From NCBI GenBank assembly GCA_014728035.1, contig WJMJ01000034.1, positions 1 through 64,000 of the forward strand: DNA of 64,000 nt, in the 5' to 3' direction. Below are positions 3,125 to 60,400 of the stretch, in pieces (within the stretch, counting starts at the first letter, position 1; each line of letters begins with the position of its first letter). The notes below the pieces were generated by a model that worked only from the letters and a program-made list of their open reading frames with translations, was not told the origin of the DNA and made no database searches. The position numbers and the translations under genes are program-made. Source of the stretch: Promethearchaeota archaeon. GTDB taxonomy: Archaea; Asgardarchaeota; Thorarchaeia; Thorarchaeales; Thorarchaeaceae.

Positions 3125-6100
3125 TTGACAAAGTACGCCATTCTAGTAATCATGTTATTCATGATTATTTTTGCAGGGTCAACCGCTACTGAAAATACAG
3201 AAGTGACTATTGCCACAGGTACTCCCAGGCAAACAATGCAAATTGGTCAGGATGAATATGTTGTTCATGAACCAATATCAATAACTTCAAAACAAGACAT
3301 GGTAGATTTAGGACTACCTGGAGCTGGAAAAGCTGACAATCCATTCATTATTGAAGAATTTATCTTTGAGGAAAATGAAGAATCCATCTATATCCAAACC
3401 ACAGATGAATATCTGATTATTAGAAACTGCTTTTTCAGAGATAATATGGTTCCATATCAATCAGGAGATATTAGTCTGGTGGGAGCAAGTAATGTAGTAG
3501 TTACTAATTGCACATTTCAAGGTTATTACAGAGGTGGCGTCTATTCTAGTTTTTCATCAGATTGCCTCATATCTGATTGTACATTCAAGGTTTACGAATC
3601 ACAAATTCAAGTATACCAATCTCAAAGATTCAATCTTGAGAATAACTATTTTGAGATGAGATCAAGAATATTATACAGTGACTCTTTTGACTCTCAGATT
3701 CAAAATAATGAGATAAATTCGCAAATGTATTCTAATATAGGAGCTCATTTTTCTAATAATGTTTCTTTCATCAACAATCAACTGATTTTGTCACAACCTG
3801 GATATATGTCAAATCAATTGATATCATGTCAGTATACAAACAATTTTGTTTTTAGAAACAACATCGTAGAAAATTATTCGTTCGGATTGAGAATATCAAA
3901 TTGCTTGAACGCAAGGATTGAAGATAATGTGTTTGTCAATAGCGGAATCGAATTGTACTCTAATTCTAATGATCCAAATCATTTTCTACATGATATCACA
4001 AACAACACGTGCTCTGGGAAACCACTTGTGTATCTGACCCAAGAATCCAATCTGGATATCTCGTCTGCAGGACAAGTGATAGCAGTAGATTGTACAAATA
4101 TCGTAGTAAGTGAAGAAAATTTTGTTAGCACTTATCAACCTATTCAATTCGCTTTTTGCAGAGATTCCAGAATTGAAAAATGTACTTTCTTGTTGGGAAG
4201 GATTGGCATTTCTATTATCAAGAGTGAAAATATAACGATCTCAACATGTAATTTTTTGGAAATATATCAAAGTAGCATCACTATACTAGATTCTCATGAT
4301 GTTCAAATTGAGTGGAATAATATATCTCAAATAGAAACAACAACTAGAGGAATGACCATATTCAATTCAATCAATTGTAGAATCACAAATAACAGTGTGA
4401 ATGTTTCTCAATATGCATTGAGTGTACTTGAATCGGCCGATATTGATATAATTGATAATAGCTTTGAAGCTCAGTATATGGGATTTCATATTGCTGATTG
4501 TTCATTCATTAATCTTCAGAATAACACCATTGATACAAACAATGATGAATTTTGGATCGAGTTATCTAAGAATATCACACTCACTGAAAATACAATTCTA
4601 GCAAACCAGAAAAAATTTGGAATCTATATTTGTCAAAATGTATCAATGGTAAATAATGAGTTATATGGAATTCTGTTATATATTGAAGGTAGTAACAAAT
4701 CCTGTTATAAGCTGAATGTAGTAGGTAATCTAATAGATAACCATGAATTGACTTTTCTGGTAGAACAACAGGATTTGAATTTGAATTGTACTTTCTCCAC
4801 TCAAGTATTTTTGATTGATTGTCAAAATGTGAGTGTCACTAGTGGATATGAAAATATCACCAAAAGCTTGCTTTTTGCATTTTGTAATGACACCATATTT
4901 TTCAATACTTCAATAAATGATATCCAATATGTTGGACTTGAATGCATCCAATCAAGTGGGATTTCACTCACAGGAATAACTGTTGAAGATGCAAAGGATG
5001 TTGTTGAAATTCGAGAATCCCAAAATTGTATCATATCAGATAGCAAGTTTACAAATTGTAGTCACACAATTCGGCTGGATAATATAGTTGGATTGACTAT
5101 TTCTGACACCATAATTGAAACTTCAACGTACGGAATTATTCTGGATAATGGAAATGATGGTATTGTTTCAAATGTCCAACTTCTCAATATTTCACATTTC
5201 GGATTTGAAATAGTAGATTTTGATAATGTATCTATAATAGATAGTCAATTTGAGGTGACTGGATTATTTTCTATAAATATATACTACTCATCTGATGTAA
5301 TTGTAAAACGGAATGATTTCAATAATGGGGGATTTGGCATCACAGGATATAATTCGGAAAGAATACAAGTTAGGAATAGCCATTTTGAAAATTGTGATGG
5401 AGCAATAAGAATCGATAAATCATCAGACAGTATAATTACCCAGAATACGATAATTGGTTCGGGATTTGAATCAGGAATTTCAATCACTGAATCATATGAC
5501 TGTACGATATCTCTTAACACGTTGAAAGGTAACTGGGTGTCTATTCATGCTTCGTTTTCAGATGGATTAGCTCTTTCTGAAAATATATTCGAAAATGGAG
5601 GAATCTACTTCCGGTCCTTTTTCAGTTTCACTATGTCAAACAATTTTGCAAATGGCAAAGAAATTGTAAGCATCAAAGGTCAGAATGATATAACCCTCAT
5701 TGATGATGACTATGGCCAACTTATTTTGTATGATTGCATGCGAGTCACATTAGAAAATATTGAAATTGAGAATGTATCCGTCCCCATTCAGCTAATTGCT
5801 TGTTATACCAGCACTATTGATTCATGTAGGATATCAGATTCTTACTACGGAATGTCTTTTGTGAATTGTATCGATTCAGACATTCAAGATACAGATATCA
5901 CTTACTGTGAAATAGGGATGGTGTTCATGAGTTGTGATGATTGTACCACAACCTCCTCGTATTTTGCCTGGAATTCTATTGGTGCTGAAGCGGTTTCGTC
6001 ATTTGGTGTTTTGAGATTCTACGAGAATGAATTCTATAAGAATGAAATTGGTCTAAGCATTCACTATAGTAGTAATGCAATAGTCGAAGATAACCTATTT

Positions 6101-7828
6101 GATAGGTGTATTCTATATGGATTGGAATGTATCCAGACGGACAGTTGCGAAATAAACAGAAATCAATTTCAGGATTCTCTTATAGCTGCAATATTTCGTT
6201 ACGGCTCAAACAATAGATTTGAGGAAAATATATTGATCAACAATGGGATAATGATAGATGGATATTCTAATGAAGTAGTTCTTGCAAATGATAACAAAGT
6301 AAACGAGAAGGAACTATTTATCGCATACAACATCGCCAATCAAGTCATCAACGCAAACGATTATGGCCAGATAATAGTGATGAATGGTTCTGGAGTCACT
6401 ATCAAAAATGCAGAGATAAGAAACGCATCAATTGGTATTGAAATCGTACGCTCAAACGATTGTGAGATTATTAGTAATGTTCTACTACAAAATTCATTTG
6501 CGTCAATTTACGTATATGAGAGCGATCAATTATCAATCCATCATAATGTGATTTCAGATAGTGATATTGGAATTAAACAAGTTAAATCGATGTACTGTAA
6601 TATAACACAAAACGAGATTGACAATTGTGTTGTAGGTATCGAATCAAAATTAGATGGAGAGGGTACAATAGTTCAAAACAGTGTTAGTGACTCTGAAACA
6701 GGAATCAAATCAAGAGGGTCATATTCTATATCTATCCTTAACAATACGGTAACCAGTTGTGATATCGGGATAGAATTAGCTCATTATCTTGATTACTACT
6801 ATCCATTTAGATCCAGCGATTGTGAAGTCAGACAAAACATGGTATTCCGAGGAAGTATAGGTATCAAATGTGGATTAGCTGTAGAGTGTAAGCTAGTAAA
6901 TAATTCAATTTATGCGAATTCTGATTTTGGAGTATTCCTAAATAGCTCAAGTATATCCAACTTGGTTTACGAAAACAATATTGGTTGGAATGCAATTGAT
7001 GCATATGATTCAGGTTTTGATAACAAGTGGAACACGAATGATGGAATAGGGAATAATTGGTATAACCAAACTCCATCATACCCTAAAAAAATCCAAGGTC
7101 TTGCGAACAGTACAGATTTCTATCCAGTCTACGAAGAGGATACAACAGCACCGACAGTTTCTGCTAAACAAGAAATTGCATTTGAGTATGGAACACCTGA
7201 AATATTGGCAATCGTTCATTGTGATGATCTATTTCTATGGACATATTCCTTGACCATCGATAGTCAAACACCAAGTGAGTATAATATTACAAGTCGAAAG
7301 ATTGAGATTGCCGTTTCTCATTTAGAGCCAGGAGTACATAACGTAATAGTGGTTGTGGGTGATTATGTTGGGTACACCAGTAGCATTTCTATTGAAGTTG
7401 TTTCAGATACCCCACAAATACCATATCTGGACCATCCAGAAGATATTCAATATGTAGAAGGAAGCACTGGAAATCGAATAGTCTGGAATGCCTCAGATAA
7501 TTATCCAGATAGCTATATTATCTTATTAGATGGTAATGAACTCAAAAATGAAGTATGGAATGGTAGTTCAATAACATTATCTGTTGATGGACTGGCAATA
7601 TCTAGATACAACTTCACAGTGATAGTTTTTGACAAAGCTGGCAACTATGCAAACGATTCCGTCTATGTTGAAGTTGTTACACCAATAGATCCAATGATGG
7701 TTGCATTAGTCGGAATTATGATTGGAGAAGGTGTACTGGCAATCCTAATAGTTCGTTATTATGTCATGAAGAAGTCCGAAATTAGTGAAGATACACCCGT
7801 ATCTCCAGATTCAATACTCGAATCCTAA
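3125..7828 (+). CDS. Giant secreted right-handed beta-helix surface protein with C-terminal membrane anchor
   Basis: The 1567-residue protein starts at TTG with a signal peptide (hydrophobic residues about 4-20, ending near AGSTATEN). Residues about 60-1330 are dozens of degenerate 20-25-residue turns rich in N, I, S and C, such as NCTFQGYYRGGVY and SDSDIGIKQ. This is the NosD/pectate-lyase-like parallel beta-helix (PbH1) pattern. Two Ig-like beta domains follow (about 1350-1530), then a single helix PMMVALVGIMIGEGVLAILIV and a short tail of about 25 residues. Unlike the 716-residue protein nearby, it has no cytoplasmic domain. The ectodomain should sit outside the cell. Ligand or carbohydrate binding is possible; I see no clear catalytic set, so enzymatic activity is not claimed. 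An in-frame ATG at 3152 is a less likely start because it shortens the signal peptide. Confidence 0.85.
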   Translation: MTKYAILVIMLFMIIFAGSTATENTEVTIATGTPRQTMQIGQDEYVVHEPISITSKQDMVDLGLPGAGKADNPFIIEEFIFEENEESIYIQTTDEYLIIRNCFFRDNMVPYQSGDISLVGASNVVVTNCTFQGYYRGGVYSSFSSDCLISDCTFKVYESQIQVYQSQRFNLENNYFEMRSRILYSDSFDSQIQNNEINSQMYSNIGAHFSNNVSFINNQLILSQPGYMSNQLISCQYTNNFVFRNNIVENYSFGLRISNCLNARIEDNVFVNSGIELYSNSNDPNHFLHDITNNTCSGKPLVYLTQESNLDISSAGQVIAVDCTNIVVSEENFVSTYQPIQFAFCRDSRIEKCTFLLGRIGISIIKSENITISTCNFLEIYQSSITILDSHDVQIEWNNISQIETTTRGMTIFNSINCRITNNSVNVSQYALSVLESADIDIIDNSFEAQYMGFHIADCSFINLQNNTIDTNNDEFWIELSKNITLTENTILANQKKFGIYICQNVSMVNNELYGILLYIEGSNKSCYKLNVVGNLIDNHELTFLVEQQDLNLNCTFSTQVFLIDCQNVSVTSGYENITKSLLFAFCNDTIFFNTSINDIQYVGLECIQSSGISLTGITVEDAKDVVEIRESQNCIISDSKFTNCSHTIRLDNIVGLTISDTIIETSTYGIILDNGNDGIVSNVQLLNISHFGFEIVDFDNVSIIDSQFEVTGLFSINIYYSSDVIVKRNDFNNGGFGITGYNSERIQVRNSHFENCDGAIRIDKSSDSIITQNTIIGSGFESGISITESYDCTISLNTLKGNWVSIHASFSDGLALSENIFENGGIYFRSFFSFTMSNNFANGKEIVSIKGQNDITLIDDDYGQLILYDCMRVTLENIEIENVSVPIQLIACYTSTIDSCRISDSYYGMSFVNCIDSDIQDTDITYCEIGMVFMSCDDCTTTSSYFAWNSIGAEAVSSFGVLRFYENEFYKNEIGLSIHYSSNAIVEDNLFDRCILYGLECIQTDSCEINRNQFQDSLIAAIFRYGSNNRFEENILINNGIMIDGYSNEVVLANDNKVNEKELFIAYNIANQVINANDYGQIIVMNGSGVTIKNAEIRNASIGIEIVRSNDCEIISNVLLQNSFASIYVYESDQLSIHHNVISDSDIGIKQVKSMYCNITQNEIDNCVVGIESKLDGEGTIVQNSVSDSETGIKSRGSYSISILNNTVTSCDIGIELAHYLDYYYPFRSSDCEVRQNMVFRGSIGIKCGLAVECKLVNNSIYANSDFGVFLNSSSISNLVYENNIGWNAIDAYDSGFDNKWNTNDGIGNNWYNQTPSYPKKIQGLANSTDFYPVYEEDTTAPTVSAKQEIAFEYGTPEILAIVHCDDLFLWTYSLTIDSQTPSEYNITSRKIEIAVSHLEPGVHNVIVVVGDYVGYTSSISIEVVSDTPQIPYLDHPEDIQYVEGSTGNRIVWNASDNYPDSYIILLDGNELKNEVWNGSSITLSVDGLAISRYNFTVIVFDKAGNYANDSVYVEVVTPIDPMMVALVGIMIGEGVLAILIVRYYVMKKSEISEDTPVSPDSILES

Positions 7829-8154: not shown

Positions 8155-8550
8155 ATGACAGAAGATACTGCAAATGAACCATTAATTAATACAGCTCATC
8201 CAAATATACGAGATGTTGAAGATATTGATCAATACTGGAGCTGGTTAGAGGATAGTCAGATTCAAGAAATTGACTCGGAAGAGATTCGTATCCTACAATG
8301 CCTGATGAAAGAATACATTGAAGATAGCAAGAAACTCCCTTTGGAACAAGCGGGATGGAGAAACAAGTATAACATATCCAAGAAAGCAAGAGTATCCCAA
8401 AAGAAAATCTATTGCGAAACAGGCCCAATCGAATCATTGGTGGATTTAGGTTTGATTGAAATTCGTGATTCACCAATTTCTTGGGGTGGTCAGAAATATA
8501 ATTACCGAATCAAAATCACAAAGCAGCTGATACATTATCTTGAGTTGTAG
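8155..8550 (+). CDS. Small soluble protein with GWRNKY winged-helix-like domain
   Basis: 131 residues with no signal peptide or membrane segment. Residues about 40-131 form a compact domain: a helix (SEEIRILQCLMKEYI), GWRNKYNISKKARVSQKKIY, LVDLGLIEIRD, then WGGQKYNYRI. The pattern of helix, Lys/Arg-rich turn helix, LVxxGLI helix and a final beta-hairpin is what a winged helix-turn-helix looks like, so DNA binding is the likely role. The same domain recurs in the product of 8622-9227 and at the C-terminus of the product of 11197-13347. The first 40 residues are acidic and probably flexible. ATG is preceded by GGGGTAAAGAG. It is followed within 75 bases by the membrane-tethered version, probably in one transcript. 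I do not recognise a named family; function is inferred from shape and context. Confidence 0.8.
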   Translation: MTEDTANEPLINTAHPNIRDVEDIDQYWSWLEDSQIQEIDSEEIRILQCLMKEYIEDSKKLPLEQAGWRNKYNISKKARVSQKKIYCETGPIESLVDLGLIEIRDSPISWGGQKYNYRIKITKQLIHYLEL

Positions 8551-8621: not shown

Positions 8622-9227
8622 ATGGAGCAAACTCGTCAATATGGTTATTTAACCAATCACATGGAGAATCTACCAAATCCAGAAGTATCAGGAAGTGTTA
8701 TACTAGCAGTTGCGATGCCAGTTATCATATTCTCGATTCTTTCACTTGGTTTCTCTATTGTAATGCTGATTTATGCAGTTCTAACAATACGAAGTCTCTC
8801 AGGTAAAAGCTCTAGAGAGGAATCGAAAGTGAGTCATGAGAAAGTCCTGATTCCAGAGTCTATAGCAAAAGAAATCACTTCAAAGAATATTATGAGTTTT
8901 CTAGAATCTCTACTCACCGAAGACGAGGTAAGAATAATCATTGCATTAGCAAAAGCAATTGTTACAGATAGAAAAAAAGAGGTTAATGATGATCAAATTG
9001 GACTAAGAAATAAGTATCAGATCAGTACAGAGTCGAATGTAGAACAGAGAGTAATTTACAGTAAAGCTGGACCAATAGACCGACTTGTCGAGGTTGGCAT
9101 CATTATGAAAATTGGTGCAGAAAAGCAAACTGGTGGACAAAAATATCTCTATGTCTTGAGTAAAGATAATTCTATCACAGCTCCTCTGATTGAAATATTT
9201 GATAGCAGAGAGGAAGTTCAAGAATAA
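8622..9227 (+). CDS. Single-pass membrane protein with cytoplasmic GWRNKY winged-helix-like domain
   Basis: 201 residues: a short N-terminal region, one strong hydrophobic helix (SVILAVAMPVIIFSILSLGFSIVMLIYAVL, about 24-54), a charged linker (SGKSSREESKVSHEK) and a C-terminal domain of about 110 residues. That domain contains GLRNKYQISTESNVEQRVIYSKAGPIDRLVEVGIIMKI and TGGQKYLYVL. It aligns position by position with the 131-residue neighbour and with the tail of the 716-residue beta-helix protein. Being membrane-tethered, it would present a putative DNA-binding domain at the inner face. The start is uncertain: ATG 8661 is an alternative, and the best SD nearby belongs to ATG 8561 in another frame. 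It precedes the 638-residue beta-helix gene by 40 bases, so co-transcription is likely. Confidence 0.75.
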   Translation: MEQTRQYGYLTNHMENLPNPEVSGSVILAVAMPVIIFSILSLGFSIVMLIYAVLTIRSLSGKSSREESKVSHEKVLIPESIAKEITSKNIMSFLESLLTEDEVRIIIALAKAIVTDRKKEVNDDQIGLRNKYQISTESNVEQRVIYSKAGPIDRLVEVGIIMKIGAEKQTGGQKYLYVLSKDNSITAPLIEIFDSREEVQE

Positions 9228-9267: not shown

Positions 9268-11184
9268 ATGCAAAATTCACGTTCGTTTTTTTTGGTCACC
9301 TTCTCTATTATAGTCGTGTCTATTTCTTTCATATCTCCAATACCACTAACTCAGCAAAATACATCGATTTCAGCTGAATACACTTATTCAAATTCAGAAG
9401 CTATTTGCATTAGAAATACAACAGAACTTGAAAACATGGGATTGCCAGGGCGAGGAACAGAAAGCAATCCATTTCTCATAGAGAATTTACATATCCAAGT
9501 ATCAAATTCCACCGCTCTAAACATATCGCAAATTGATGGATATTACATCGCTGTCAAGAATTGTCTTTTCGAGTCCTTAATGGGCTCTCAGTATGTAATC
9601 AGTCTCAGAAAAGTTAGCAATCTGATAATTGATAATTGCACATTATCTTGCAATGAAGCTCCTGCAATGAATGTAACAGAATGTAATAACTTGAAGATAT
9701 TAGACAGCAAGATAGATGGCGCAGGAATGATGTTTTGGTTCAGTGATAATCTTGAGCTAATCAATAACGAAATTGGTGATGTGATATCTTCAGAGACCAA
9801 TTATGCATCGATATCCCCATTAGCCCTAGTGTTTTCGGTACACATGGAAAATTGTACATTCGTAATATTCACTGAAAACTGGATATACAATACTCCTACC
9901 CATGGCATGTTTGTTCGGTATAGTAATAATTTAACAGCTGCCAACAATAGAATAGACTCTATAGCATCTTGGTCATTCTATTTTTCACGCAGCTATAATG
10001 TGAAGATATATGATAATATGATTAGAGATACTGGTTGGGTACCAATTCGAATTTATAAATCGTATAACTGTGACGTAATGAACAATATTATCCTTAGAAG
10101 TGGTGAATGGGGAATTTACATTGTAGAATCTCTTCAGATAAGAATCACCAAAAACACTATCAAATACACAGAATTCATGGGTATTGCATTAGAAAGCTCG
10201 ACCTCATGCACAATGATCCATAACAGTATTTTTTATGCTGAGTCTAATGGTATAAGAATTCTAGATTCTAATAAAATGTCTATCAAAAATAATTCAATTA
10301 TTGATTCTGCTTCTGACGGAATAAGAATCCATAATACCAGTGAAGTTGAAATTGACGAATGTTATATTGCTAATTCATTATATAACGGAATAGTTTTTGA
10401 AAGGTCAATCTACGTTTTCATATCAGATAGTTACATAACAGGATGCAGAGGTTCTGGAGTCTATTTCTATCGAACAAATTCGAGTGAGATTAATATGACC
10501 TGGAGCGTGGATAATTTTCTTTCAGGCATTCAATCAACGCAAAGCAATAACCTATCAATAACAAATAACTCTCTTTGCAGAAATGACGAATATGGGATAT
10601 CACTATCTGAAACAGAGTCATCGAAAATATATCACAACAGAATTGGACTCAATACTCAAAGTGCATTCGATGATTTAGGAAATAACCAATGGAATTATAC
10701 ACATTTTGGAAATAGATGGCATGATTTTCTAGGTCCTAGCGATTCATCAATTTCTATTGCGGGATCCTCAGAATCTTCAGATTTCCATGCATACCGATGG
10801 TTTAGAACTATTCCCAATATCACCTCAATATCTCCAAGCCAGATAATTAAACAAAACTTGGAAACCATTGTTTTTGAATTAGAAGCACCAAATTTAGAAT
10901 GGTACAGGATATATGTGAATAATGAAAAAATCGTTTCACATTGGGGGCCAGCTAACACAATACAGACTACTTTGAATCTAAGTGTCGGGCAGCATAACAT
11001 AACTATCAAGGTTATCAATGTATTTGGAGAAACTAATTCAATGTCACGAATAATAACAATTACTTCTGTTGAAGCTAATATTAGTGAAGAAATCTTAGTT
11101 TCAATTATTTTAATTTCGAGCGGGATTATCCAACTTGTTGCTGGCTCTATTCTGGTTCGTGAAACAAGAAAACTCAAAGAATGA
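9268..11184 (+). CDS. Secreted right-handed beta-helix protein with C-terminal membrane anchor
   Basis: 638 residues, ATG preceded by CGAGGAAATAAA. It has an N-terminal signal peptide (FFLVTFSIIVVSISFISPIPL), then NosD/PbH1-like beta-helix turns over about 60-470 (for example NGIRILDSNKMSIKNNSI). An NxWxxxxxGNRWHDFLG cap of the kind that ends these helices follows, then one Ig-like domain (about 515-595). The last segment is a membrane helix (EEILVSIILISSGIIQLVAGSILV) with a basic stop-transfer end RETRKLKE. The N-terminal motif ELENMGLPGRGTESNPFLIENL matches QDMVDLGLPGAGKADNPFIIEEF in the 1567-residue protein, so the two are paralogs. It probably belongs to the same transcript as the two GWRNKY-domain genes upstream. 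Role is unknown beyond cell-surface display. Confidence 0.85.
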   Translation: MQNSRSFFLVTFSIIVVSISFISPIPLTQQNTSISAEYTYSNSEAICIRNTTELENMGLPGRGTESNPFLIENLHIQVSNSTALNISQIDGYYIAVKNCLFESLMGSQYVISLRKVSNLIIDNCTLSCNEAPAMNVTECNNLKILDSKIDGAGMMFWFSDNLELINNEIGDVISSETNYASISPLALVFSVHMENCTFVIFTENWIYNTPTHGMFVRYSNNLTAANNRIDSIASWSFYFSRSYNVKIYDNMIRDTGWVPIRIYKSYNCDVMNNIILRSGEWGIYIVESLQIRITKNTIKYTEFMGIALESSTSCTMIHNSIFYAESNGIRILDSNKMSIKNNSIIDSASDGIRIHNTSEVEIDECYIANSLYNGIVFERSIYVFISDSYITGCRGSGVYFYRTNSSEINMTWSVDNFLSGIQSTQSNNLSITNNSLCRNDEYGISLSETESSKIYHNRIGLNTQSAFDDLGNNQWNYTHFGNRWHDFLGPSDSSISIAGSSESSDFHAYRWFRTIPNITSISPSQIIKQNLETIVFELEAPNLEWYRIYVNNEKIVSHWGPANTIQTTLNLSVGQHNITIKVINVFGETNSMSRIITITSVEANISEEILVSIILISSGIIQLVAGSILVRETRKLKE

Positions 11185-11196
11185 CATTGTTGATAT

Positions 11197-13347
11197 TCAA
11201 TTCAAATCAATCATTATTTGAAAAAGCAGATATTCGGTATTTATTCTGTATTGAAATCGCTGTCTACCCCAATATAACCTAGTAGATTCCCTTTTTGAAA
11301 TTAGTGCGTTTTTCAATAGTAAATACACTACACCATTATGGCTATAGACCTGTCGTTTGGATACCTTAGCTCCCAAATGCATCTGATATTTGTTTCTCCA
11401 TCCGTATTTTTGTGGCATACGTGAATAGTCACTAATTGAATCTTGAAGGAATTCACGGAACAGGTAAGAAACAACGGAATACATCTCTCGATTTAGGATG
11501 CGTTTAAGAAAATTCCAACATTTGTCAATTGTAAGTTTTGAAATTATATGCTGTAAATTGATAATCAAGTATTGAGAGTGTGTTCGTACCAAAGTAGGTT
11601 TCCTAGTATATTCACGGAAAAGTAAAGCTGTTCCTATTGGAAATATAATAAGAATAAAAAGAATTGAAATTGGGTTTGAAATGGATAGAATTGACGTCGA
11701 AGGTTGTAATTCATAGTCAAACGTACTTGTGCTATTGATATTACCATCTTGGTCTTGGAGAATTATTTCAAATTGGATAACATTAAAACGCCCAATCATA
11801 ATATCTGATGACCAGCTACTCTCTCTTCGTGTCATCTGAATTATATTCCAGACATTGGACGCATCAACTGAATAATTCAAACTCATTATTTCAATTGAAG
11901 AATTAGTAGAGGCAGAAAAAGTGACATAAGACATATCCTGATAAATTTCCAAATCCAAAGATACCTGAGGGGGAATATAATTCATAAAGAACCTCTTACT
12001 AATTACAGTCTCAGCACTCATGATGGGGTATAAGTCTTGTAGCCCAAATGCAATTGTGTACGGTTCGTCTGCAATGAGATCTCCATCTTCATCTTCGCCC
12101 TGATGCGAGGAATAATAATTTCCGTATTTCGCATTACAGAATTTGATACTATTAAGCTCGGTCCCTTCGATAGGATCTGAGAAAGGTTGTATGAAAGCGT
12201 TCATGAAAACTCTTCCAGAACTTTCCCAAAAACCCAAAGCTGCATTCACAGATTGATTTATGACACTCCCAAAAATACAGATATCCTCTACTCTATTACA
12301 AGATATACCCCAACCCTGGGCCAATGTAATATCATTCAGAACTACGTCAATTGCTTCAGATTCATATATCTCAATTCCATTTCCAGATGAACAATATATA
12401 GAATTAGATGAAATGCTAATATCTTCAGCATATTCAATCGATATAGAATGACAAGTATCTAAGGTATTGTTTTCGATATAGCTATTTTTACACTCAAAGA
12501 AACGGATTCCCGAGATATTGGAGTGGATAATATGATTATTAACTAGAGTTGCATTTCTTGTTTTACGAACGTGGATTGCATTTTCATTAACCGAGTCAAG
12601 GATATTATGCGATATTTTGATATTGTTTGTGTTATCAACAAACACGCCATCGAAGTGTGATCCGATTACTGAATTATTTTCGATAGAAATTTCTGAACTC
12701 CGAATAACCTCAATCGCAATACCATTCGAGTTGAGTAGATTTCCAGAAAGGATAACGTCTGACCCATAGCTTAATTCAATCCCAATTTCTGAATCTGAAA
12801 TATTGTTATTATTTAGTTGTATGTTTTCAGTGTCATGGATTTTTATTGCTACTTGAGGATGATTGAAGAAAGTGCAATTTTGAATCACCGAGTCAACACC
12901 ACTAATATGAATTAGTTCCTTTGTTGTGTATCCTGCATAGAACTCACATCTGGTCAATTCGATACTAGAACCCTCCTCAGATACGAGATACCACTCGAAA
13001 TCGCCTACGGACTTGACACATGTATCTTCTAAATTTAGGAAACCACCGTTAGTTATTATGATGTTACAATAATCTTGAGTAGCAATAATTGTGCAATTAT
13101 CAAAGAGTATCCGTTCATCTTCGGAAATATACATTGATGTTTCCAGTTCGATAATTTCATCTCGGTAAATACTTGTAAAATCAGAATTTATCCGTCCAAT
13201 CATGGTAGCTTCTAAATTTGTGGAATATGGCATGGACTCTTGAAACATACTAGTAGAATTGGTAACTATTTGAATGAAAAATAGAGATATCGCTAAGATA
13301 GAAAAAGCATGTCTGAAGTTAATCACCACCCTTCTCAACTGCCACAC
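11197..13347 (-). CDS. Beta-helix surface protein joined through one membrane helix to a cytoplasmic GWRNKY winged-helix-like domain
   Basis: 716 residues, convergent with 9268-11184. A signal sequence (HAFSILAISLFFIQIVTNS) leads into beta-helix turns (about 60-400), an Asp-rich loop EDEDGDLIADEPY, one Ig-like domain (about 455-550) and a membrane helix (SISNPISILFILIIFPIGTALLF, about 555-577). The cytoplasmic part of about 140 residues ends in GWRNKYQMHLGAKVSKRQVYSHNGVVYLLLKNALISKR and YWGRQRFQYRI, homologous to the two small proteins encoded opposite. The architecture is an extracellular repeat domain plus an intracellular putative DNA-binding domain, without a kinase, which suggests a one-component surface sensor. 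The ORF-track start is GTG inside a 19-bp tandem repeat; the TTG or GTG codons a few residues in (before VVINFRHAF) are equally possible. Confidence 0.8.
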   Translation of the reverse strand: MWQLRRVVINFRHAFSILAISLFFIQIVTNSTSMFQESMPYSTNLEATMIGRINSDFTSIYRDEIIELETSMYISEDERILFDNCTIIATQDYCNIIITNGGFLNLEDTCVKSVGDFEWYLVSEEGSSIELTRCEFYAGYTTKELIHISGVDSVIQNCTFFNHPQVAIKIHDTENIQLNNNNISDSEIGIELSYGSDVILSGNLLNSNGIAIEVIRSSEISIENNSVIGSHFDGVFVDNTNNIKISHNILDSVNENAIHVRKTRNATLVNNHIIHSNISGIRFFECKNSYIENNTLDTCHSISIEYAEDISISSNSIYCSSGNGIEIYESEAIDVVLNDITLAQGWGISCNRVEDICIFGSVINQSVNAALGFWESSGRVFMNAFIQPFSDPIEGTELNSIKFCNAKYGNYYSSHQGEDEDGDLIADEPYTIAFGLQDLYPIMSAETVISKRFFMNYIPPQVSLDLEIYQDMSYVTFSASTNSSIEIMSLNYSVDASNVWNIIQMTRRESSWSSDIMIGRFNVIQFEIILQDQDGNINSTSTFDYELQPSTSILSISNPISILFILIIFPIGTALLFREYTRKPTLVRTHSQYLIINLQHIISKLTIDKCWNFLKRILNREMYSVVSYLFREFLQDSISDYSRMPQKYGWRNKYQMHLGAKVSKRQVYSHNGVVYLLLKNALISKRESTRLYWGRQRFQYRINTEYLLFQIMIDLN

Positions 13348-13379
13348 CTATCGATATTATCCACACCTATCGATATTAT
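13342..13379. repeat. Exact 19-bp tandem duplication
   Basis: CCACACCTATCGATATTAT occurs twice head to tail with no spacer, overlapping the putative start and immediate upstream region of the 716-residue sensor-like gene. It may be a paired regulatory site or a recent slippage duplication. Confidence 0.7.
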
Positions 13380-13489
13380 CCGATGGTGATTTGTATTTTA
13401 TATTAATTGTGCCGTTCTATCTTGATTCATAAGTCATGGAATGCTATTTTTACAACGTTCCTAATAATTTCCAGTCGATACCACAAGGA

Positions 13490-13496: not shown

Positions 13497-13587
13497 AAGT
13501 TACACAAATATTTCTAGTTGAGGTCGCGATACAATTGAAATATGCTTTATGCTATCCTCAATTACTAGCGACTGGGAGATAATCGAA

Positions 13588-13761
13588 ATGAGCAAGAAAA
13601 TCAAAAAGTTCGTGAGTGTCATTGGCGGTAAGATGGATGTAACATGCGATGAGTGCGGCGGCAAAATGCGCCCTGGTGGTCATTATCAACTAGATCATGG
13701 CGATGATAGCTACCAATTCTGTAGCGAGAAGTGTATGGAAGCTTACGAAGGCAAGATGTAA
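13588..13761 (+). CDS. Small TRASH/zinc-ribbon-like metal-binding protein
   Basis: I start at ATG 13588 rather than the track start 13549 because GGGAGAT lies 8 bases upstream and MSKKIKKF is a natural N-terminus. The 57-residue product has two cysteine pairs, CDECGGKM and FCSEKCMEAYEGKM. The spacing and the C-x3-C-x3-Y/F ending resemble the TRASH/MYM-type treble-clef domain, used in metal sensing, trafficking and resistance. It is basic at the N-terminus and has no membrane segment. It is convergent with a dihydrolipoamide-dehydrogenase-like gene whose product ends in HEHHH. Metal binding is well supported by the cysteines; which metal, and whether it acts as a regulator or chaperone, is not visible. 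Confidence 0.8.
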   Translation: MSKKIKKFVSVIGGKMDVTCDECGGKMRPGGHYQLDHGDDSYQFCSEKCMEAYEGKM

Positions 13762-13811: not shown

Positions 13812-15239
13812 CTAATGATGATGTTCATGTCCATCAAGTGGAGACATCGCTCCAAATGCTCTCTGTACAATTTCTGGTAAAGCAGGATGGATATGTATTG
13901 CGCGGAACATTGGCATGAAACTTCGATTCTCAGTATACATAAGGTTAACAATCTCTTGAATGAGAATTGGAGCATAAGGTCCAATTATGGTCGCTCCTAG
14001 TATCTCTCCAGATTTTCTATCAGCAATCACGCGAACAAATCCATTTGGCCGACCCATGGCCATTCCCTTGGCTGAATCCTCGTAAGCATTTTTTCCAACC
14101 AACAATTCTTTGTCTGTTTCTTTTGCTTCGCGTAATGTCATTCCGACGGTCGCTATTTGCGGATAAGAGAACACCGCTCTGGGAATTGCATGATAACTCA
14201 TACTGGCTAATTCAACCTGGTCGCTACCTTCTTCTTCTGCATTCATGACCTGAGAGATATTATGTTGAACGATTTGAGACTGGTCATTCGCAACATGACG
14301 AAACATATCATGTCCAAGTGCATCTCCAAAGGCCCAGATGTTCTTCTTGGAGGTTCTAAAAAATTCATCTACTTCAATCCAGCCCTTCTCATCAGTCTTG
14401 ACTCCTGTCTTCTCTGGTTTGAAAAGGTCTGCATTCGATTGCCGTCCCGTTGCAATTAACAGAGTTTCTGCTTTGAATTTTTTAGTCTTTCCAGATGATC
14501 TGTCTTTTGCAATGACAATTTTCATACCATTCTTTTCGTTAACCTCTATAACTTCGTGGTCAGTAAATATGTCCATCCGCTTTGATAATTCACCTTTTAA
14601 TAACTCGGACACATCCTCATCCTCTTCGGGAACCAGATACTTATTTCTTCCAAGGATAGTAACCTCAACACCCATTGCATCAAAGAAATGTGCGAACTCA
14701 GTTGCAACATAACCACCTCCAACAATAATCATCGACTGAGGTTTCTTCTTCATATCCATCAGAGTCTTGTTTGTGTGATATTCTACATTTTCTATACCCT
14801 TAATGGGAGGGATGAGTGGTCTAGCTCCAGCAGCAATTATGATATGCGGTGCAGTGATTTTCTCATCTCCAACCTTCACCGTATAGTCATCAACAAATTC
14901 ACCCGTAACCTCATACCAATCATAGTTCTCAGCTGATCTAATAGATTCAGCCATTTTACTAGAATCAGGTCTAACCTCATCTCTCATTCTATCCATGATG
15001 CCTTCAAAATCAATAGATTCTGCTTCAAACTTGACTCCTAATTTTTCAGCATGTTTTGCTTGTTCTACAAGATCAGCGACATAGGTCAGAATCTTTGTGG
15101 GAATGCACCCTCTATTCAGACAAGTACCACCCATCCTGCCATGTTCAACTAATGCTACTTCTAGTCCTCGTGAATACATAGAAGAAGCAACGTTCGTTCC
15201 TGCACCAGAACCTATTACAATTAGGTCATATTCTTTCAT
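13812..15239 (-). CDS. FAD-dependent pyridine nucleotide-disulfide oxidoreductase (dihydrolipoamide dehydrogenase/mercuric reductase-like)
   Basis: 475 residues from ATG 15239; the track start is a TTG four codons upstream. The FAD-binding GSGAG is near the N-terminus and the redox-active disulfide is in GGTCLNRGCIPTK (C40 and C45). NAD(P) binding is in IIVGGGYVATEFA, a second FAD motif is around WAFGDALG, and the dimerisation domain ends with HIHPALPE, the His-Glu pair that serves the partner active site. This set defines the Lpd/MerA/glutathione reductase family. The C-terminus is DGHEHHH, a short histidine-rich tail not usual for Lpd. No 2-oxoacid dehydrogenase genes are nearby, while a TRASH-like metal-binding gene is convergent with it, so a role with metals is as likely as one with lipoyl proteins. 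It is probably a cytoplasmic homodimer. Confidence 0.85.
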   Translation of the reverse strand: MKEYDLIVIGSGAGTNVASSMYSRGLEVALVEHGRMGGTCLNRGCIPTKILTYVADLVEQAKHAEKLGVKFEAESIDFEGIMDRMRDEVRPDSSKMAESIRSAENYDWYEVTGEFVDDYTVKVGDEKITAPHIIIAAGARPLIPPIKGIENVEYHTNKTLMDMKKKPQSMIIVGGGYVATEFAHFFDAMGVEVTILGRNKYLVPEEDEDVSELLKGELSKRMDIFTDHEVIEVNEKNGMKIVIAKDRSSGKTKKFKAETLLIATGRQSNADLFKPEKTGVKTDEKGWIEVDEFFRTSKKNIWAFGDALGHDMFRHVANDQSQIVQHNISQVMNAEEEGSDQVELASMSYHAIPRAVFSYPQIATVGMTLREAKETDKELLVGKNAYEDSAKGMAMGRPNGFVRVIADRKSGEILGATIIGPYAPILIQEIVNLMYTENRSFMPMFRAIHIHPALPEIVQRAFGAMSPLDGHEHHH

Positions 15240-15263
15240 TGTGTAACCCAACTCTTTCTAAAC

Positions 15264-49571: not shown

Positions 49572-52500
49572 TTAGCTATCAATTCCAAGACTCTTCAGGA
49601 GAGCTTCCATATCTGCTTTTGAGAGGTCATGTGCTTGCTCTAGAATGATTTCAATTTCTTCCTTCGCAATACCTTTCTGCATTAGCTTCTTTCGGAACTC
49701 TTCCAGAACTTCTGGTTGTTCACCAAGTGTCTTGGGGCCCACTGAAGGTGTGGTTTTTGATTCAGGAGTAACAGGGGTCTCTACTTCAGGTTTAGCTTCA
49801 ACCTTTTCGGGTTTAGTTGTTTCCGTAACATCAACCTCAGGCGACTCAGATATCTCAGCTTCAACAACAGGTTTAGTTTCAGCTTCTGCAATTGCTTCAG
49901 CACGACGAGCTTCTTCTTGTGTAATAACCTCTTTTAGGAAGCCAATCCGTTCACTGACTTTCATCCTTGCTAAATCAGACTTAAAGGCTTCAAGGTCTGA
50001 TTCTCCGAGACCTGTTATCTCAGTCAACCGGTCGAGTAATTCATTCAACTCGGGTACATCAATTTGAATTGGTGGAGAATGAACCTTATCTGGATCAGGC
50101 TCTATCTTTGTCGCTGCAAATTCTTCCCTAAGAATAGCAACAGTCAAATCCTTTCTAGACTGTGCAGGATATGGTTTAGGTACCTTACCCTTGCTTACAT
50201 TAGAAATCATACTGTTCAAAACTCTAATCATCTTGGGAACACTATAGATTCGTACATAGTATACAATACCGAGTGCGACGAATATGAAGCTTAGTCCACC
50301 AAGAACCTGAGCAGCTTGTATTAAGGCTTGAGTAGCAGATATGTCAGAAATAACCTCAATGTCAATCGTTTGAGTGACATAGTTTTCCTTTGCCATCGAA
50401 ATACGTATTGTGAACGTCCGACCAACATTGACCTGGAAATACAGAGTATAGACGCCGGGTTGAGTTTCACGAGTCCTATCAGGATAGTAGGTCACATTTC
50501 CTTCATTAAATGAAATATCAGGTATCACACCAGAAACTGGGACGTTATGATCAAGATCATAGTAACGAATCTCAATTGTGATAACGCTACCAGGAGTAGT
50601 TTGAATTCTTGTCTGAGAAGCAGTAAGATTAGTTCGAATCAAATCTACCGAGATGAATACAGTCTTGGTGGAAATTGCGTAGATTTCTGTTGGAAATGCA
50701 ACTTCTACCTGATAAGTACCTAGAATCAAATCGTCAGGAATTGCTAGTGCATACCCATTCGGGCTATTCTCAAGGGAGAACTGTCCAATACCAGTCCAAA
50801 CTGCAATACCATTTAGGTCATCAATAAGTTCGCCAGTTAGTGTGTTAGTGACGTTAAAGTAGATTGTATTAGTTTCATTGATTGGTGTTGAGAATGTATC
50901 AGGTCCATGTATTATTGCTTCAGTAGGCAAGATCGTAACAGCAAGGGCGATATTTGCTGTTTGATAATTCTCTTTTCCGATACTTACCGAAATATCATAG
51001 AATTGTGGTAGTGTCAGGTTGAGATAGAATTCTATGAGATAGCTGCCATTCTGTAAATCAGTTGCTACTGGATTGGGACCAACCCATGAAATTGACAGAG
51101 TTCCGTTCAAAATTGGTTGATTTGTATAAGTGTCATTGAAGTAAACAACAAATGATACATATTCGCCAGTATATCCGTCTTGCAATGAGCTTTGAGTTGT
51201 TAGTTCAGTGGAATGAGGACGGACTGTCAAAGTCAAGGTTCGCTTAGATACCGTATAGCCAGATTTTATTGCAGTGATACTAATGTAGAATGTTTTAGCA
51301 GATAGAAGAGAAGTGTTAATTGAGGCGGAGTAAGAACCATCAAGTTGCTGCTCAAGACTCCCTGATAATTCGCCTACACTGTAAGATATGGAAGCATTAT
51401 CAATGGAAACATCATAATGGGTATCATTGAAAGTAAATTCCAAAAATACCAATTCATTATAGAACACCGTAAGACCAGCTTGATCAGTTAGAAGTGTGAG
51501 TTTTGATGGAATAAGATCAACTGAAACTACTATTTCAGAAGAAAGAATGTCGTAATTAGTAGAACTTGCACTGAATGCTAGATTGTACTGTCCATAACCA
51601 AACCCAGTTACATTTACTGAGCCGAAATAGAACCCGATTGTGCCATTATTAGATAGTGTTACAATAGTATCGTTCCACTCAGCTGTCACTGATGCAGACT
51701 GAATAGGTTGGTCATTTGTAGAATCATAGAGATAGACATAGTAGTAACCAGTCGTGTTTGCAATTACAGAAAGCAAACTATTACTTGGTTCGATGTATCC
51801 AGTTGCTTTGGATATTACTAATGATAATGTAGTCTGCCGAGTCTGATAATATTCACGAGTTACTGTTATCTGCGGTGAATAGATTCCCCAATCCACAACG
51901 CTTGTATCAAGTATGAGAGAATAGCTTCCATCGTCTAAATCAGTGAAATAGTAAGTGGTACCATTCAACAAGAGGCTACCATTCATTCCTTTCACCAGAG
52001 TTCCACGATATGTGTCCTCCACATTGAATCGAATTTCTACAGACTGACCCCAATCAGCGTAGTAAGTTGTTTGGGCTAAGAGAATCACTACAGAACCTGA
52101 ACCAGGTTGTACGCTGATAGTAATGTTAACTGTTGCGTAATATTGCTTAGTAGCCTCTACTGTGAAGACATACTCTTGAGCTACAAGCCCAGTTGTGTTA
52201 AGTGATATTCTGTACTCACCATTATCAATCTCATTGATAGTCGCTGAAAGGCCTGTAATGTCAGTCCAATCAGTACTTAGAGTTGCACCAAGAATGGGAA
52301 CTGAATGATCGAAATCTATTAACGTCAGATTTACGAGAATTGGATCACCGACTGGAATTGTTCCAGCACCTGGTACTTCAGAAATTAATGAGGTTTGAAT
52401 AGCTCTGATCGAGGCAGGAATATCAGATTCTGTTCTGCTTGCGTAAAATGGGGTACCACTCTTACTTAACGTTAATTCAAGGAGAATGTTCCCGAGACCA

Positions 52501-55500
52501 CCGAATTGGTCGGATGGGATAGTTAAGACGTAGATTCCACCAGAGAAATTCTGAATATACCATACTGGTGTTGTGAGGTTGGTTATGACCAAATCCACAT
52601 TAGCATCATTTATTCCTGAGCTCGTTAAATAATCTATGAATTCAAATTCTATTGTGATGTTATCACCGTAAGGTGTTTCTTCAACAGAGGGGAATAGAAT
52701 TTGTGTAGGACGCTCAATAGTATTCGCTACAGTTGATATTGTTCTAACAGTATAGTATGGTATTCCAACGCTCTTATTGATGAGTAGTTTGATTGTGTGA
52801 GAGCTAACTAACTGAGAGGGATCTAGGATAGTAGAATTGAAGGTTATCTCATAGTAGCTTGCATAAGCCCAGAGTGTGTAATCAGATTGGTCAATGACTG
52901 TATCTAGTGGACCATGGGTTAATGTGATATGGCTCTGATTAATGTAGATATTCTCGCCCGTGAAAAAGTCTTCAAATCTGAATGTGAAAGATATATCTTC
53001 AAGAAATGAAGTGTCACCTGGTGTCTTGGTTAGAATTATCTGAGTTGTTCTCTCAATTACCCGTGCATTAACATTTTGTGACAATGGGAGATAGTAAGGT
53101 TGTCCTACATAACTTACCTGGAACTCAATAGTGTAGATATCTGGGCTCCCTAGAGCTGAAGTGTTTACATCAATTCTATACTGCCCATCTTCAATGTAAG
53201 TTATCCAATATGTTGTATTCTCAACTAGGGGTTCCACAGATTCACTACAATTTAGAATGACTATCGCATCCTCAATACCATTACCAGTTGAATCATCAAC
53301 ATAGGTAATCAATATTGTAGAGTTTCTTCCATATGGAGCTGAATCTGGACTTTCGTATCCTAATTGTGTGCTTCTTTTCAAAACATTGATTGTGAAATAA
53401 TGAATTGCATCAGCTGCATTGTTAGAACCTGTGTATAAGATGGTTGCATTGAGGGTATAGGTTCCATCTGAAGGAAAGCCGGTGGAATCTAAAACAACCC
53501 TGTATTCTCCATCTCCCAAGTATGATACATAATACCAACCACTCAAGGATATATTTAGAGATAAATCACCCGTCATTCCAGATGAGCTACCTGCTACCAA
53601 GTCAGTATAGACGAAATCAATAGTGACATTATTCCCCCATTGAGGAGAATTAAATGCTAAATTGCTAAGTTGTGTGGTTCTGAGTGTAATTGTAACAGTG
53701 AATGCAAGACTGGATACTGCCGCGTAATTCGGTAATCCAACCCAAGTCAGATTCAAATGGAGTGAATAAGATCCAACTCCACCAACAGTAGAAGTATCAA
53801 TATACAACGTGAAGGTTCTATCTACATCATTATAACTCAGAGTGAAAATTATCCCACCTTCATTTAGACCAATAGTTAACTCTGAAGAATTGGAAATCTT
53901 GGTTGTTGATAAAGAGTCCACATAGTTGAATGAGAATTCTGCGGTTTCACCATAAGGAGTACTCTGAACAGGAGTATAGTCAACATAGGTTGGACGTTGT
54001 AAAACAATGAGTGTAACAGTAAGACTCTGATTCTCATAGAGCGGAGATATACCTGCTCTCCACATGAAGTCCAACTTGAATCTGAATGTTCCAGTTGTGA
54101 TAAACAAAGAACTATCCAAATTGAATTCATATGTTCCCGGATTAGTTCCAGATTCTACTACATAGAAATCCGATTGAATAACCGGATGACCTGAAGTAAT
54201 AGGAGCAATTTGTAGTAACACATTATCAGTATCATTAGAGATACGTGTGCTTGTGTCAAATTCTTTGTAAACTACTGTAAAGGTGAAGTTTTCAAGACAG
54301 TAGGTAGCAGAAGGAGCTATTTCTAAGAATACAATCGTATCAGTCCCTTTAATCCGTACGGATGAATTTAGGTCACCTTCAACATATTTTACAGCGCCAT
54401 CCCACCAGATGGAAATAATGAGGTTTTTCGTGCCAATAGTTCCCCATTGATCACTTGGAATGGAGATATTGTAGTGCCCATCTCCATAATTGGAATTACT
54501 AACCCAGTATTGTATACTGGAGATACCAGGGGAGCTCACTGTTATTCGGACGTTACCAGAAATGTTGGTAATTGGTATACTAAGATCAGTATCTTCGTAG
54601 TAGACTAGAGCTGTTATGTTTTCACCAAATTGTGTTTGCTGAATTGGTGAATCAAACTTGAATAGAGTTTGATGCTGTCTAACTAGAACATCGATAGAAA
54701 ATGTGTGATTCTGATAGTTCGGTCGTTCAATAGTAAAATTAACTGTGTACCACTTCTGATCCGCACCTTGTGTGTCATCATCTTCTGTGAATATGGTAAT
54801 CTCATATTTACCTGCAGTAGCAGTTTCAGAAATAGTGTAGTTATCCTCACCCAGTGTATGATATGTATCCCAATCACATACTATGTATGAAGCTGCACCA
54901 GCTATTGGACTTCCACTATCCTCAGTCCATGTAAGGAAGAATGATTGATTAGAACCAACAGGAATTGATAGTTGATTTGCAGTATAACTAATAGAGTTGT
55001 ACACCTCTCGTACCTCAACTAGAAGGAACATCTGAACGGGATTAACAAAGTCAGCTGTTGCATTGATCAGGAGTTTGTAAGTTCCAAGAGGTACACCAGT
55101 TCCGTCAAGCTTGAAGTCATATGTGCCATCAAGGTTATCCGTTACAGAATAACTTGTAGACCAATTGCACCATAGAACTCCACTAGAAATCCCAGTTGGG
55201 ATAACAGCATCTCTTCTGAAATTAACCGTGAATGATTGATTGTTACCAATTCTATCTGATATCCCAGGATATTGGTCAGATGTAAGAGTAGCATCGTAAT
55301 TAGCATTGATTGTCAATACACCTGAAGTATCATCATAGAAAGTCCGAGACCAGTTCATAACCATAGAGTATTGTCCTTTATCAGGAAGGTCTTCGGTTTC
55401 AAATACCAAAGTGTATTCACCATTTCCACTGCCTGAAAATGAACCTGTTAGAATAACATCATTTGTTGAATTACGAATCTCATATGACATAGTTCCTTGG

Positions 55501-57461: not shown

Positions 57462-60400
57462 TAGTCCATCCCTCCAATTTGGTCAATTAGAGCTTCGACC
57501 TCAGCCTTTGATAGCTCTTTGGCTTGTTCAATCATAATTTCAACCTCTGATTCACTAATTCCCATTTTTCGTAGTTTTTCTCGAAGATCATCTAGTTCAG
57601 CATCAGTAAGTTTCTGTTCAACATCTTCATCAGCAGATTCAGCAGCTGTTTCCTCAGCTAACTCCTTTGCACGACGAGAACGTTCTTGTCGAATAACCTC
57701 AGAGATGAAGCCAGCCCGTTCACTTGGTCGCATTGCTTCCAAATTTATTCTCAACGTTTGGATATCATCCTCAGTTAGACCAACAACTGTAGCTAGTTCA
57801 TGAAGAAGCTCCTCAACATCAAGAATCTCTACTTGGATTGTTGAACGCGATATATCATCAGATGTTTTTATGATACCAACCGGCACCAGATCTTGATTCA
57901 TCATAGACAGAAGCATTTCCCTTCTATCTGAGGTGTCGTAGGGTTCTGGTATACCACCCTTTGAGATTGTGTTGATCATTTTCTGAATCTTTCTAACTTG
58001 TTTTGGAACAGATAGAACCCGGATATACACAGCAGCTAGAATCGCAAATCCAATAACTGCGATGGCAATATTTCTGAATCCAGTTACAAGAGCCTGTTGT
58101 TCTGGAGGAATTTCAGAAAATATCACAATATTGACAGTTTGAGATTCGTAATCATTCAAACTCATTGTGACTGTGAGTTCATAAGTTGCTACACCAGGTG
58201 GAATGAAGGCAAATACATACGTACCATTACCATAATCAATCTCTCGGTCTAGTATTCGTGTAAGCCCTGGATTTGTTGTTGCATTATTTGCATTAGGAAT
58301 TGCAGTAGCATGATCGAGGTCGTAATAGGTAACTCGAACAAATAGGATGTTTCCAGCAAATACAGATGGAGGTAGCGGCTCATAGGTCAACTCTGTTGCT
58401 ATTTCTCTGATTACAAGATTCAGAATTATCTCTGTTTGACTATAATTCAATTTGCTGATAGAAATCCTCACGCGATATGGCTCATCTTTTATTTCTAGTC
58501 TGTCAATACCTGTTGCACTAGGACTGAAAACATAAGTTCCATTTCCAAGGTCTTCTAGGATAGCATTACCAAACTCCCAGATTGCTGATGCAGTTGCCCC
58601 AGAGATCAACTCATCATGAAGACTGTCAAGATAATCAAATGAAACTGAGTAATCATCACCAACAGGATAGGTTATCTCTTCTGGTCCATCGATAGTTGTA
58701 CTGATTGGCTTCACGATTAATTTGACATTTGTAAAGGCATAGGCATGATTATCTTTCCTCATGGTAATCGATATTCTTCTTGCGCTACTACCTGCGATTA
58801 CAATCGATGAGTTTAAGGTTAGTGAATAATTTCCACCACCTTCATTTACCAATAATCCCGAAAATCCTTCAAATACAAAATTCGTAGTAGCATTATCTAT
58901 CCCAATGTTCGAATGAGTATTATTGTAATAAAGTGTGAATGTTGCATTTTCACCATGAAATACAGTAAGCAATGCTGGCCCAATAATTTCAATTTTCGTT
59001 GGTATTGGTGTGACATCCAAAGTCACTTCAATAGAAGCTGGTTGGTAACCTGACTGACTGCTAGAGACTGTCAATATCCATTCACTAATAGCAATTGAAC
59101 TGGTTGGAACCATTGCAGAATACCAACCATTTCCTAATTCAGTCATATTGCCAACAATCGTTCCAACGCTGTATGTGAGTGTTGAATTAAGGACTGGAAG
59201 GTTAAGGTCAGTATTATTAAGGTATACAGTCACATTGACCTCATCACCATAGACTGCAGGGAGGACGGAGATGTCATTAAGAACAGATAATTCCGTCGAT
59301 GCTTCACTAACTTCAATAGTTAATTGAGTTGTGACAGTTTTGTAATTTGTAGATGATGCGGAAACCTGGACTTGGTGAGATCCAACAGTTACACCTGAAA
59401 TAGTAAATTGCCCAACATATTTTGATTCGATTGCATTCCAAAAGATTTGTCCAGCCCCTCCAGTCCAGGTATATGTTACAATGCCAGAAGAAATTGGAGA
59501 TGAATCGGACTGAATCACATACTCAACTTCTACAGTTACTGTTTGACCATTGACAGTAACATATGAATCTAGGTCTGCATTAATTGATGTACTGACTTTT
59601 GCAATTTTTATCTGGAAATCTCTTTGTCTGCTCTCATGATTCAGTAAGGAGGATGAGAAAGTAATCGAATACTCTCCCGCATTGAATGAGGAAGAGAGAA
59701 GTGTTCTATTATAGATACCAGGTGCAACTTCGATTAAATCATAGTACTGGCCACTTATGGTCATGTTCACACTAGCATTGATAATCGCTGAACCGTCACG
59801 AGCATCGGTCAGATTGACCGAGAACTCCATTGATTCGCCCCATATCGGTTCCGTAGGAGTAGCATCTATATCCATTAAAACAGGTACTGGTGCTAAAATA
59901 ATATCAGCTAGTATTGTTCTGTTAACATGCAAGTATTTCTCAGCAGTAAGTGAGAAGCTGTAGATTTCTGCATCGAGCCCAGTCGTTTCAATAGTTATAT
60001 TGTAAATTCCATCACCTAACTCAATAATGGTTATTGAGGTGCCATACAAAGAGTTCCAGTTTGATTGAATATCAGCAGCCTCAATCCCATCACCAGAGAT
60101 TTGATTGATAAAAGTTAGATTTCCAATAATAATATCACCAAGATAGTTGGTAGACTCGTCAGATACTGCAAATGATAAAGTGGTTGACACCGGATTTACA
60201 ATGATTGTAAACCGTAATAATGTCTTATTTTGATAATACGGAGTACCTGTCCAAGAGAAGTTTGCATAGAAGATAAATCGACCCAGAGTAAGTAATTTCG
60301 TGGTATTGATCTTCACACCATATGTACCATCGAAATTGTTGATAATCCAATATTGAATTGGAGTTATATTGCTACAAGAAATACTAACAGACGCATTTTC

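Follow-up and report, generated by a model that had tools for sequence, protein, structure and literature searches.

Within a 64,000-nucleotide stretch of a Thorarchaeal genome (positions 1 to 64,000 of contig WJMJ01000034.1; hereafter the window), we describe a gene that joins an exported beta-helix ectodomain, via an Ig-like domain and one membrane helix, to a C-terminal winged-helix (wHTH) domain. Its product is probably a one-component transcription regulator that spans the membrane in type I topology, for which we infer DNA binding, ligand sensing, signal transfer and targets. At the level of sequence, the gene itself, its orthologue, the selection acting on it, its gene module and the homology of both its halves are established, and its fold and topology are well supported by prediction.

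Architecture, topology and integrity of the fusion gene

The open reading frame, which lies where a first, sequence-only reading of this DNA had placed it, comprises 716 codons (Table 1). At its 5' end, GGTGTGRCARTTGAGAAGGG is common to the fusion genes of both species that encode one, the species analysed here and a sister species (G001). This shared context favours TTG at 13338 over GTG at 13347 and suggests a predicted protein of 713 aa. A tandem 19-bp repeat, GATAATATCGATAGGTGTG, which is absent in such form from the sister species, lies directly upstream of the fusion start (13342-13380, minus strand).

The orthologue of the sister species is a colinear, full-length fusion of 712 aa with 64% identity (L032, 11070-13208). 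Nei-Gojobori comparison of the two genes gave an overall dN of 0.23 and dS of 0.92 (dN/dS of about 0.25), with values of 0.18 and 1.79 for the wHTH part and of 0.21 and 0.76 for the beta-helix part. All segments are under purifying selection, which is strong in the wHTH, a part that has diverged less than the linker and membrane helix. Given the colinear orthologue and the dN/dS ratio, a frameshift, a misassembly or decay of the gene is unlikely, and the fusion is neither a chance reading frame nor a chimera.

Pfam models for Beta_helix (PF13229; 3.4e-21, 76 bits vs a gathering threshold of 25.9) and NosD (PF05048; 1.1e-20, 74.4 bits vs 23.6) match the protein above their thresholds. Hydropathy indicates two segments only, the core of the signal peptide and residues 559-577, the KD value of the membrane helix being 2.85 in the orthologue. 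In the full-length AlphaFold2 model, pLDDT is mostly >90 in the beta-helix block up to about residue 380 and lower thereafter; the seven-strand sandwich is modelled with low confidence and is followed by a membrane-spanning helix, the linker helices and a confident wHTH (residues 605-716). The best Foldseek matches of this model are AlgG (an alginate epimerase), tailspikes, polysaccharide lyases and NosD (7osf). Residues 31-556 contain 23 K/R vs 73 D/E, and residues 579-716 contain 23 K/R vs 9 D/E. This charge pattern assigns the beta-helix to the outside and the winged helix to the cytoplasm, a predicted topology with good support. N-glycosylation sequons were rejected as topology evidence: the window protein has 11 vs 9.0 in shuffles, and their excess in the orthologue is mild.

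Thus, Pfam, hydropathy, charge and AlphaFold2 bear out the order given in the sequence-only reading, i.e. signal peptide, beta-helix, Ig-like domain, one membrane helix and cytoplasmic C-terminal domain, and the Pfam scan found no kinase, receiver or protease domain in the fusion, in agreement with that reading. The model and the topology check that it had called for place helix 559-580 at the predicted membrane segment and, by charge, the C-terminal domain inside.

Table 1. Positions in the window of the fusion gene, its segments and the neighbouring genes of the module
Feature	Position	Strand	Size or residues	Basis and remarks
Fusion gene for the type I membrane protein, from beta-helix to wHTH	11197..13347	-	716 aa	TTG at 13338 as probable start; ORF, Pfam, hydropathy, charge, AlphaFold2, orthologue
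N-terminal signal peptide region	13249..13347	-	residues 1-33	hydrophobic core 7-25, KD 1.89, basic n-region
Right-handed beta-helix ectodomain, NosD/Beta_helix type	12133..13176	-	residues about 58-405	PF13229, PF05048, AlphaFold2, Foldseek
Ig-like beta-sandwich adjoining membrane	11704..11982	-	residues about 456-548	seven strands 462-546, low pLDDT; alignment
Single transmembrane helix	11608..11673	-	residues 559-580	KD 2.49; helix in model
Cytoplasmic linker helices	11497..11589	-	residues 587-617	AlphaFold2
C-terminal winged helix, 'GWRNKY' family	11200..11490	-	residues 620-716	pLDDT 93.8; PDB wHTH matches
S-type soluble wHTH protein, GWRNKY family	8155..8550	+	131 aa	domain search
M-type membrane-tethered wHTH protein	8622..9227	+	201 aa	TM at N-terminus, wHTH at C-terminus
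Second beta-helix type I membrane protein	9268..11184	+	638 aa	convergent with fusion; conserved in G001

The GWRNKY winged helix and its gene module

When modelled alone with AlphaFold, the C-terminal 126 residues of the fusion form a helix-helix-helix-strand-strand fold (pLDDT 93.8, pTM 0.85). Its Foldseek matches in the PDB are mostly wHTH proteins, the majority of which regulate transcription (MarR, ArsR/SmtB, AbfR2 and TFE-alpha); the probability is near 1 for many of them, yet their E-values are above 0.01. The confident model and these structural neighbours support the earlier assignment of the GWRNKY domain as a wHTH. The fused domain itself is matched by none of the wHTH models of Pfam and NCBIfam; the closest hits, all weak, were obtained with its relatives (Sta1 for 9, Lrs14 for 6 and TrmB for 4 of 19 GWRNKY family members). 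The wHTH domain profile alone retrieved no significant PDB relative. The core of the fused domain is basic (net +10 over 64 residues, pI 10.6), and it keeps all five invariant columns of the family (G, N, Y, G and Y). Both features favour DNA binding as its putative function, although wHTH folds can also bind proteins.

The domain was detected at E<=0.001 in 18 of 228 genomes of the phylum, 16 of which belong to the same family. Public genomes with a close match are labelled Thorarchaeota, apart from a single one labelled as an archaeon only. In the genomes searched, GWRNKY domains occur mainly in Thorarchaeia, in a soluble form (S) and a form with a single membrane helix (M) that are usually encoded as a gene pair; the maps of relatives' loci indicate that the two genes are often adjacent and commonly convergent. 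The genome of the fusion harbours three further copies, two of them, S and M, at most 5 kb from it. A viral origin of the domain was rejected, as no relative was found in viral contigs. Solitary M-type genes devoid of a beta-helix partner (L045 6232-6891, L046 6296-6988, L049 6104-6709 and L051 8057-8770) are probably separate regulator lineages. Distant versions of the wHTH are also found at the C-termini of larger, soluble-looking proteins in other families of the phylum (L068 1426-2460, minus strand; L069 1-1827, plus strand), including a protein of 344 aa in G142 and one with TPR-like repeats in G073.

In the window, the S, M and second beta-helix genes and the fusion lie together, and this block is conserved in the sister species. 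Eight loci of three other genera (L037-L044; genera g6, g8 and g11) have S/M genes beside a gene for a beta-helix-class type I membrane protein. These unfused beta-helix proteins have a short basic cytoplasmic tail, and alignment indicates that the Ig-like part is absent from them; in the alignment of the full-length fusion with beta-helix proteins (A6), about six residues are misplaced per beta-helix row. The beta-helix protein and M are separate neighbours in the relatives, and what M proteins expose on the outside is limited to short N-terminal segments. This gene module, split in some species and fused in others, was absent from the sequence-only reading.

We searched the fusion ectodomain against 46 genomes (E<=1e-10). 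Outside the genus, six genomes gave a match; for five (G006, G008, G011, G021 and G026) it is the beta-helix gene beside S/M, the exception being G007. Beta_helix genes are abundant (the genome of the window alone has 107 matches); hence, chance would not be expected to place the ectodomain match beside S/M in five of six cases. As its two parts are neighbours elsewhere and form one chain here, the fusion is a Rosetta-stone protein linking the beta-helix protein and the wHTH. In a phylogenetic tree, the fused wHTH groups with the S-type proteins of its own genus with moderate, not decisive, support (87/85), and joining it to M instead was not rejected (p-AU 0.11).

In two other genomes, wHTH genes lie beside an exported, membrane-anchored protein that is not a beta-helix (L035 2688-5042 and L047 6837-9182, both minus strand), with matches to GlcNAc 2-epimerase and to glycoside hydrolase 76/88-like proteins. 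These loci suggest that the extracellular partners of the wHTH genes are exchangeable.

Comparison with known membrane regulators

ToxR and CadC have an N-terminal DNA-binding domain and a C-terminal ectodomain. They are membrane regulators like the fusion, but with the reverse order, as the sequence-only reading had noted, and the fusion does not share their layout. That reading went on to propose a distinct design for the fusion. This proposal is not supported, since the same layout is found in DUF7343 proteins, and CoxC also has a C-terminal DNA-binding domain (PMC11347149). DUF7343 (PF24034) has matches in 21 of 59 genomes of the phylum. One such protein in the fusion's own genome (L093, 685-1710) and five inspected elsewhere in the phylum, each from a different genome, are built like the fusion, with a signal peptide, an ectodomain, a single membrane helix and a C-terminal cytoplasmic wHTH. 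In contrast to the fusion, their ectodomain is of about 200 aa and not a beta-helix, and their wHTH belongs to another family; PF24034 has no match in the fusion at E<=1, and its matches in the genome scan lie elsewhere.

The sequence-only reading had also suggested a search for the same domain order in other Asgard genomes. Among 228 genomes of the phylum, the exact fusion was found in two only, those of the window (G000) and of the sister species, which belong to one genus. The layout recurs with other domains in the DUF7343 proteins. Thus, the succession of ectodomain, one membrane helix and C-terminal wHTH is not new, being common in archaea as DUF7343; the unusual traits of the fusion are its beta-helix ectodomain, an unnamed wHTH family and the split-vs-fused gene module.

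A 2023 census of 404 archaeal species listed 1,384 membrane regulators, and the commonest form of these transmembrane transcription regulators is single-pass (Demey et al. 2023, PMC10269533). The fusion has their features, namely a DNA-binding-type domain, cytoplasmic in both, and a membrane anchor in one chain with no two-component domains such as a kinase or receiver, but it differs in that its wHTH is devoid of a Pfam model. We therefore infer that the GWRNKY family would go unnoticed in a census that detects membrane regulators by their domains. CoxC of Afipia carboxidovorans (MHYT-LytTR), an experimentally shown membrane one-component regulator, has an N-terminal sensor and a C-terminal DNA-binding domain (PMC11347149). 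Its order is that of the fusion, but it is bacterial, its sensor has seven helices and its DNA-binding domain is a LytTR rather than a wHTH. In contrast, the archaeal membrane-bound one-component regulators ArnR/ArnR1 of Sulfolobus, with an N-terminal HTH followed by two C-terminal membrane helices (PMC6396743), have the opposite order and no large ectodomain; the fusion does not have this layout. The co-component system VtrA/VtrC (PMC9214523), in which the partner is encoded alongside, is comparable with the split beta-helix and M proteins of the relatives, but unlike in the fusion its DNA-binding domain is N-terminal and its ectodomain C-terminal. In co-component pairs, sensor and membrane regulator are two chains whose ectodomains form a heterodimer.

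With NosD (PF05048), the fusion shares the beta-helix repeats and the terminal GNY..D...D.D.D.I.D.PY motif; it differs by its membrane anchor and intracellular wHTH, and scores 55.9 bits against the NosD model TIGR04247, below the cut-off of 300. Lrs14, Sta1 and AbfR2 are soluble archaeal wHTH regulators. GWRNKY members match Lrs14 and Sta1 weakly and far below the cut-offs (14.2 and 18.5 bits for the M-type gene against the Lrs14/Sta1 NCBIfam models, with cut-offs of 90 and 80 bits, and no match for the fused domain); AbfR2 is also a structural match. In the open-licence literature, we found no description of a wHTH joined to a beta-helix receptor of the NosD type.

Proposed mechanism, operator search and alternative explanations

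We propose that the exported beta-helix and Ig-like part binds a partner at the cell surface, most likely a glycan or a further protein located there. The single membrane helix and the short helical linker may relay the state of the ectodomain to the winged helix, which would bind DNA at the membrane. The ancestral system would have been a three-gene module made up of a beta-helix protein, a soluble S wHTH and a membrane M wHTH, which the relatives have kept separate. In one Thorarchaeal genus, a copy of the GWRNKY wHTH, probably the neighbouring S-type, would have been joined to the tail of the beta-helix protein. In the relatives, the beta-helix protein, M and S may divide the same function among them. 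More tentatively, Thorarchaeia might use one wHTH family in a hitherto undescribed system for sensing at the cell surface. The family would act as S, M and, in one genus, fused forms, all on the same operators, and the signal from the beta-helix protein (or, in two genomes, the epimerase/glycosidase-like exoprotein) would set which form occupies the promoter.

Little is known of how Asgard archaea sense their surroundings, and the fusion offers a concrete, testable link between surface beta-helix proteins and gene regulation. The beta-helix proteins that would thereby be tied to regulation form a large, uncharacterised surface class, and the fusion predicts that the unfused ones beside S/M genes are receptors.

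Our search for operators established none in the window. In genera g6 and g8, the divergent intergenic regions between the S and beta-helix genes contain the palindrome GGTTC-N4-GAACC, with exact copies at L038 7774-7787, L040 7422-7435 and L044 6073-6086 and copies with one mismatch at L037 1166 and 1352 and L042 7481. Its arms are conserved, its spacer is variable, and it is accompanied by a promoter-like palindrome, GAGAAAAAGGATAGGTCTTTTTTCTC. GGTTC-N4-GAACC is missing at the modules of the window and the sister species and shows no genome-wide excess over the reversed control. It was rejected as a general operator for these reasons, and we regard it at most as a candidate local autoregulatory site in the relatives. 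Another element, GATAATATC, is found upstream of S (8026) and twice upstream of the fusion. We do not claim it as an operator, as its excess in the window is weak (5 vs 1.55 expected, with 3 of 100 shuffles as high).

That no operator was found in the window would also fit a rather unlikely alternative in which the fused wHTH does not read DNA itself. By wHTH-wHTH contact, it would hold S and/or M at the membrane and release them on signal, as an anti-regulator. The adjoining S, M, beta-helix and fusion genes, conserved as a block in the sister species, agree with this, and, with the fused domain paralogous to S, a heterodimer is conceivable. However, its core has retained the invariant positions and the strongly basic character expected for DNA binding, and the short, basic tails of the unfused beta-helix proteins would require another surface for contact with S/M.

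Two further explanations appear quite improbable. The receptor might be cut at or near the membrane, freeing a 13-kDa wHTH as an S-like soluble regulator. A linker of about 40 residues separates the membrane helix from the wHTH, and the relatives encode the same domain as soluble S, so that a freed domain would work alone; against regulated proteolysis, neither a protease domain in the fusion (Pfam) nor a protease gene in the module was recognised, and a non-systematic look revealed no cleavage motif. Alternatively, the protein could work at the surface as an adhesin or enzyme, its intracellular domain being merely a nucleoid anchor or a passive leftover of gene fusion. Polysaccharide enzymes and tailspikes are the structural matches of its beta-helix, and Thorarchaeal genomes encode many beta-helix surface proteins. 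A passive role is difficult to reconcile with the strong purifying selection on the wHTH and its conservation beyond that of the linker and membrane helix, and the neighbours in the module are wHTH proteins. We thus regard a membrane-bound regulator that reads DNA itself as the probable function of the fusion.

Other genes of the window were also recorded. Two adjacent giant ORFs of 2629 and 2092 aa (49572-57461 and 57461-63739, both minus strand) have no Pfam match at E<=1e-5. A giant beta-helix type I membrane protein of 1567 aa is encoded upstream of the S gene, at 3125-7828 (plus strand). The fusion is flanked by genes for a 70-aa zf-FCS zinc-finger protein (13549-13761, plus strand) and a pyridine nucleotide-disulphide oxidoreductase (13812-15251, minus strand); a similar oxidoreductase gene adjoins an S gene in another genus (L034, 671-2104).
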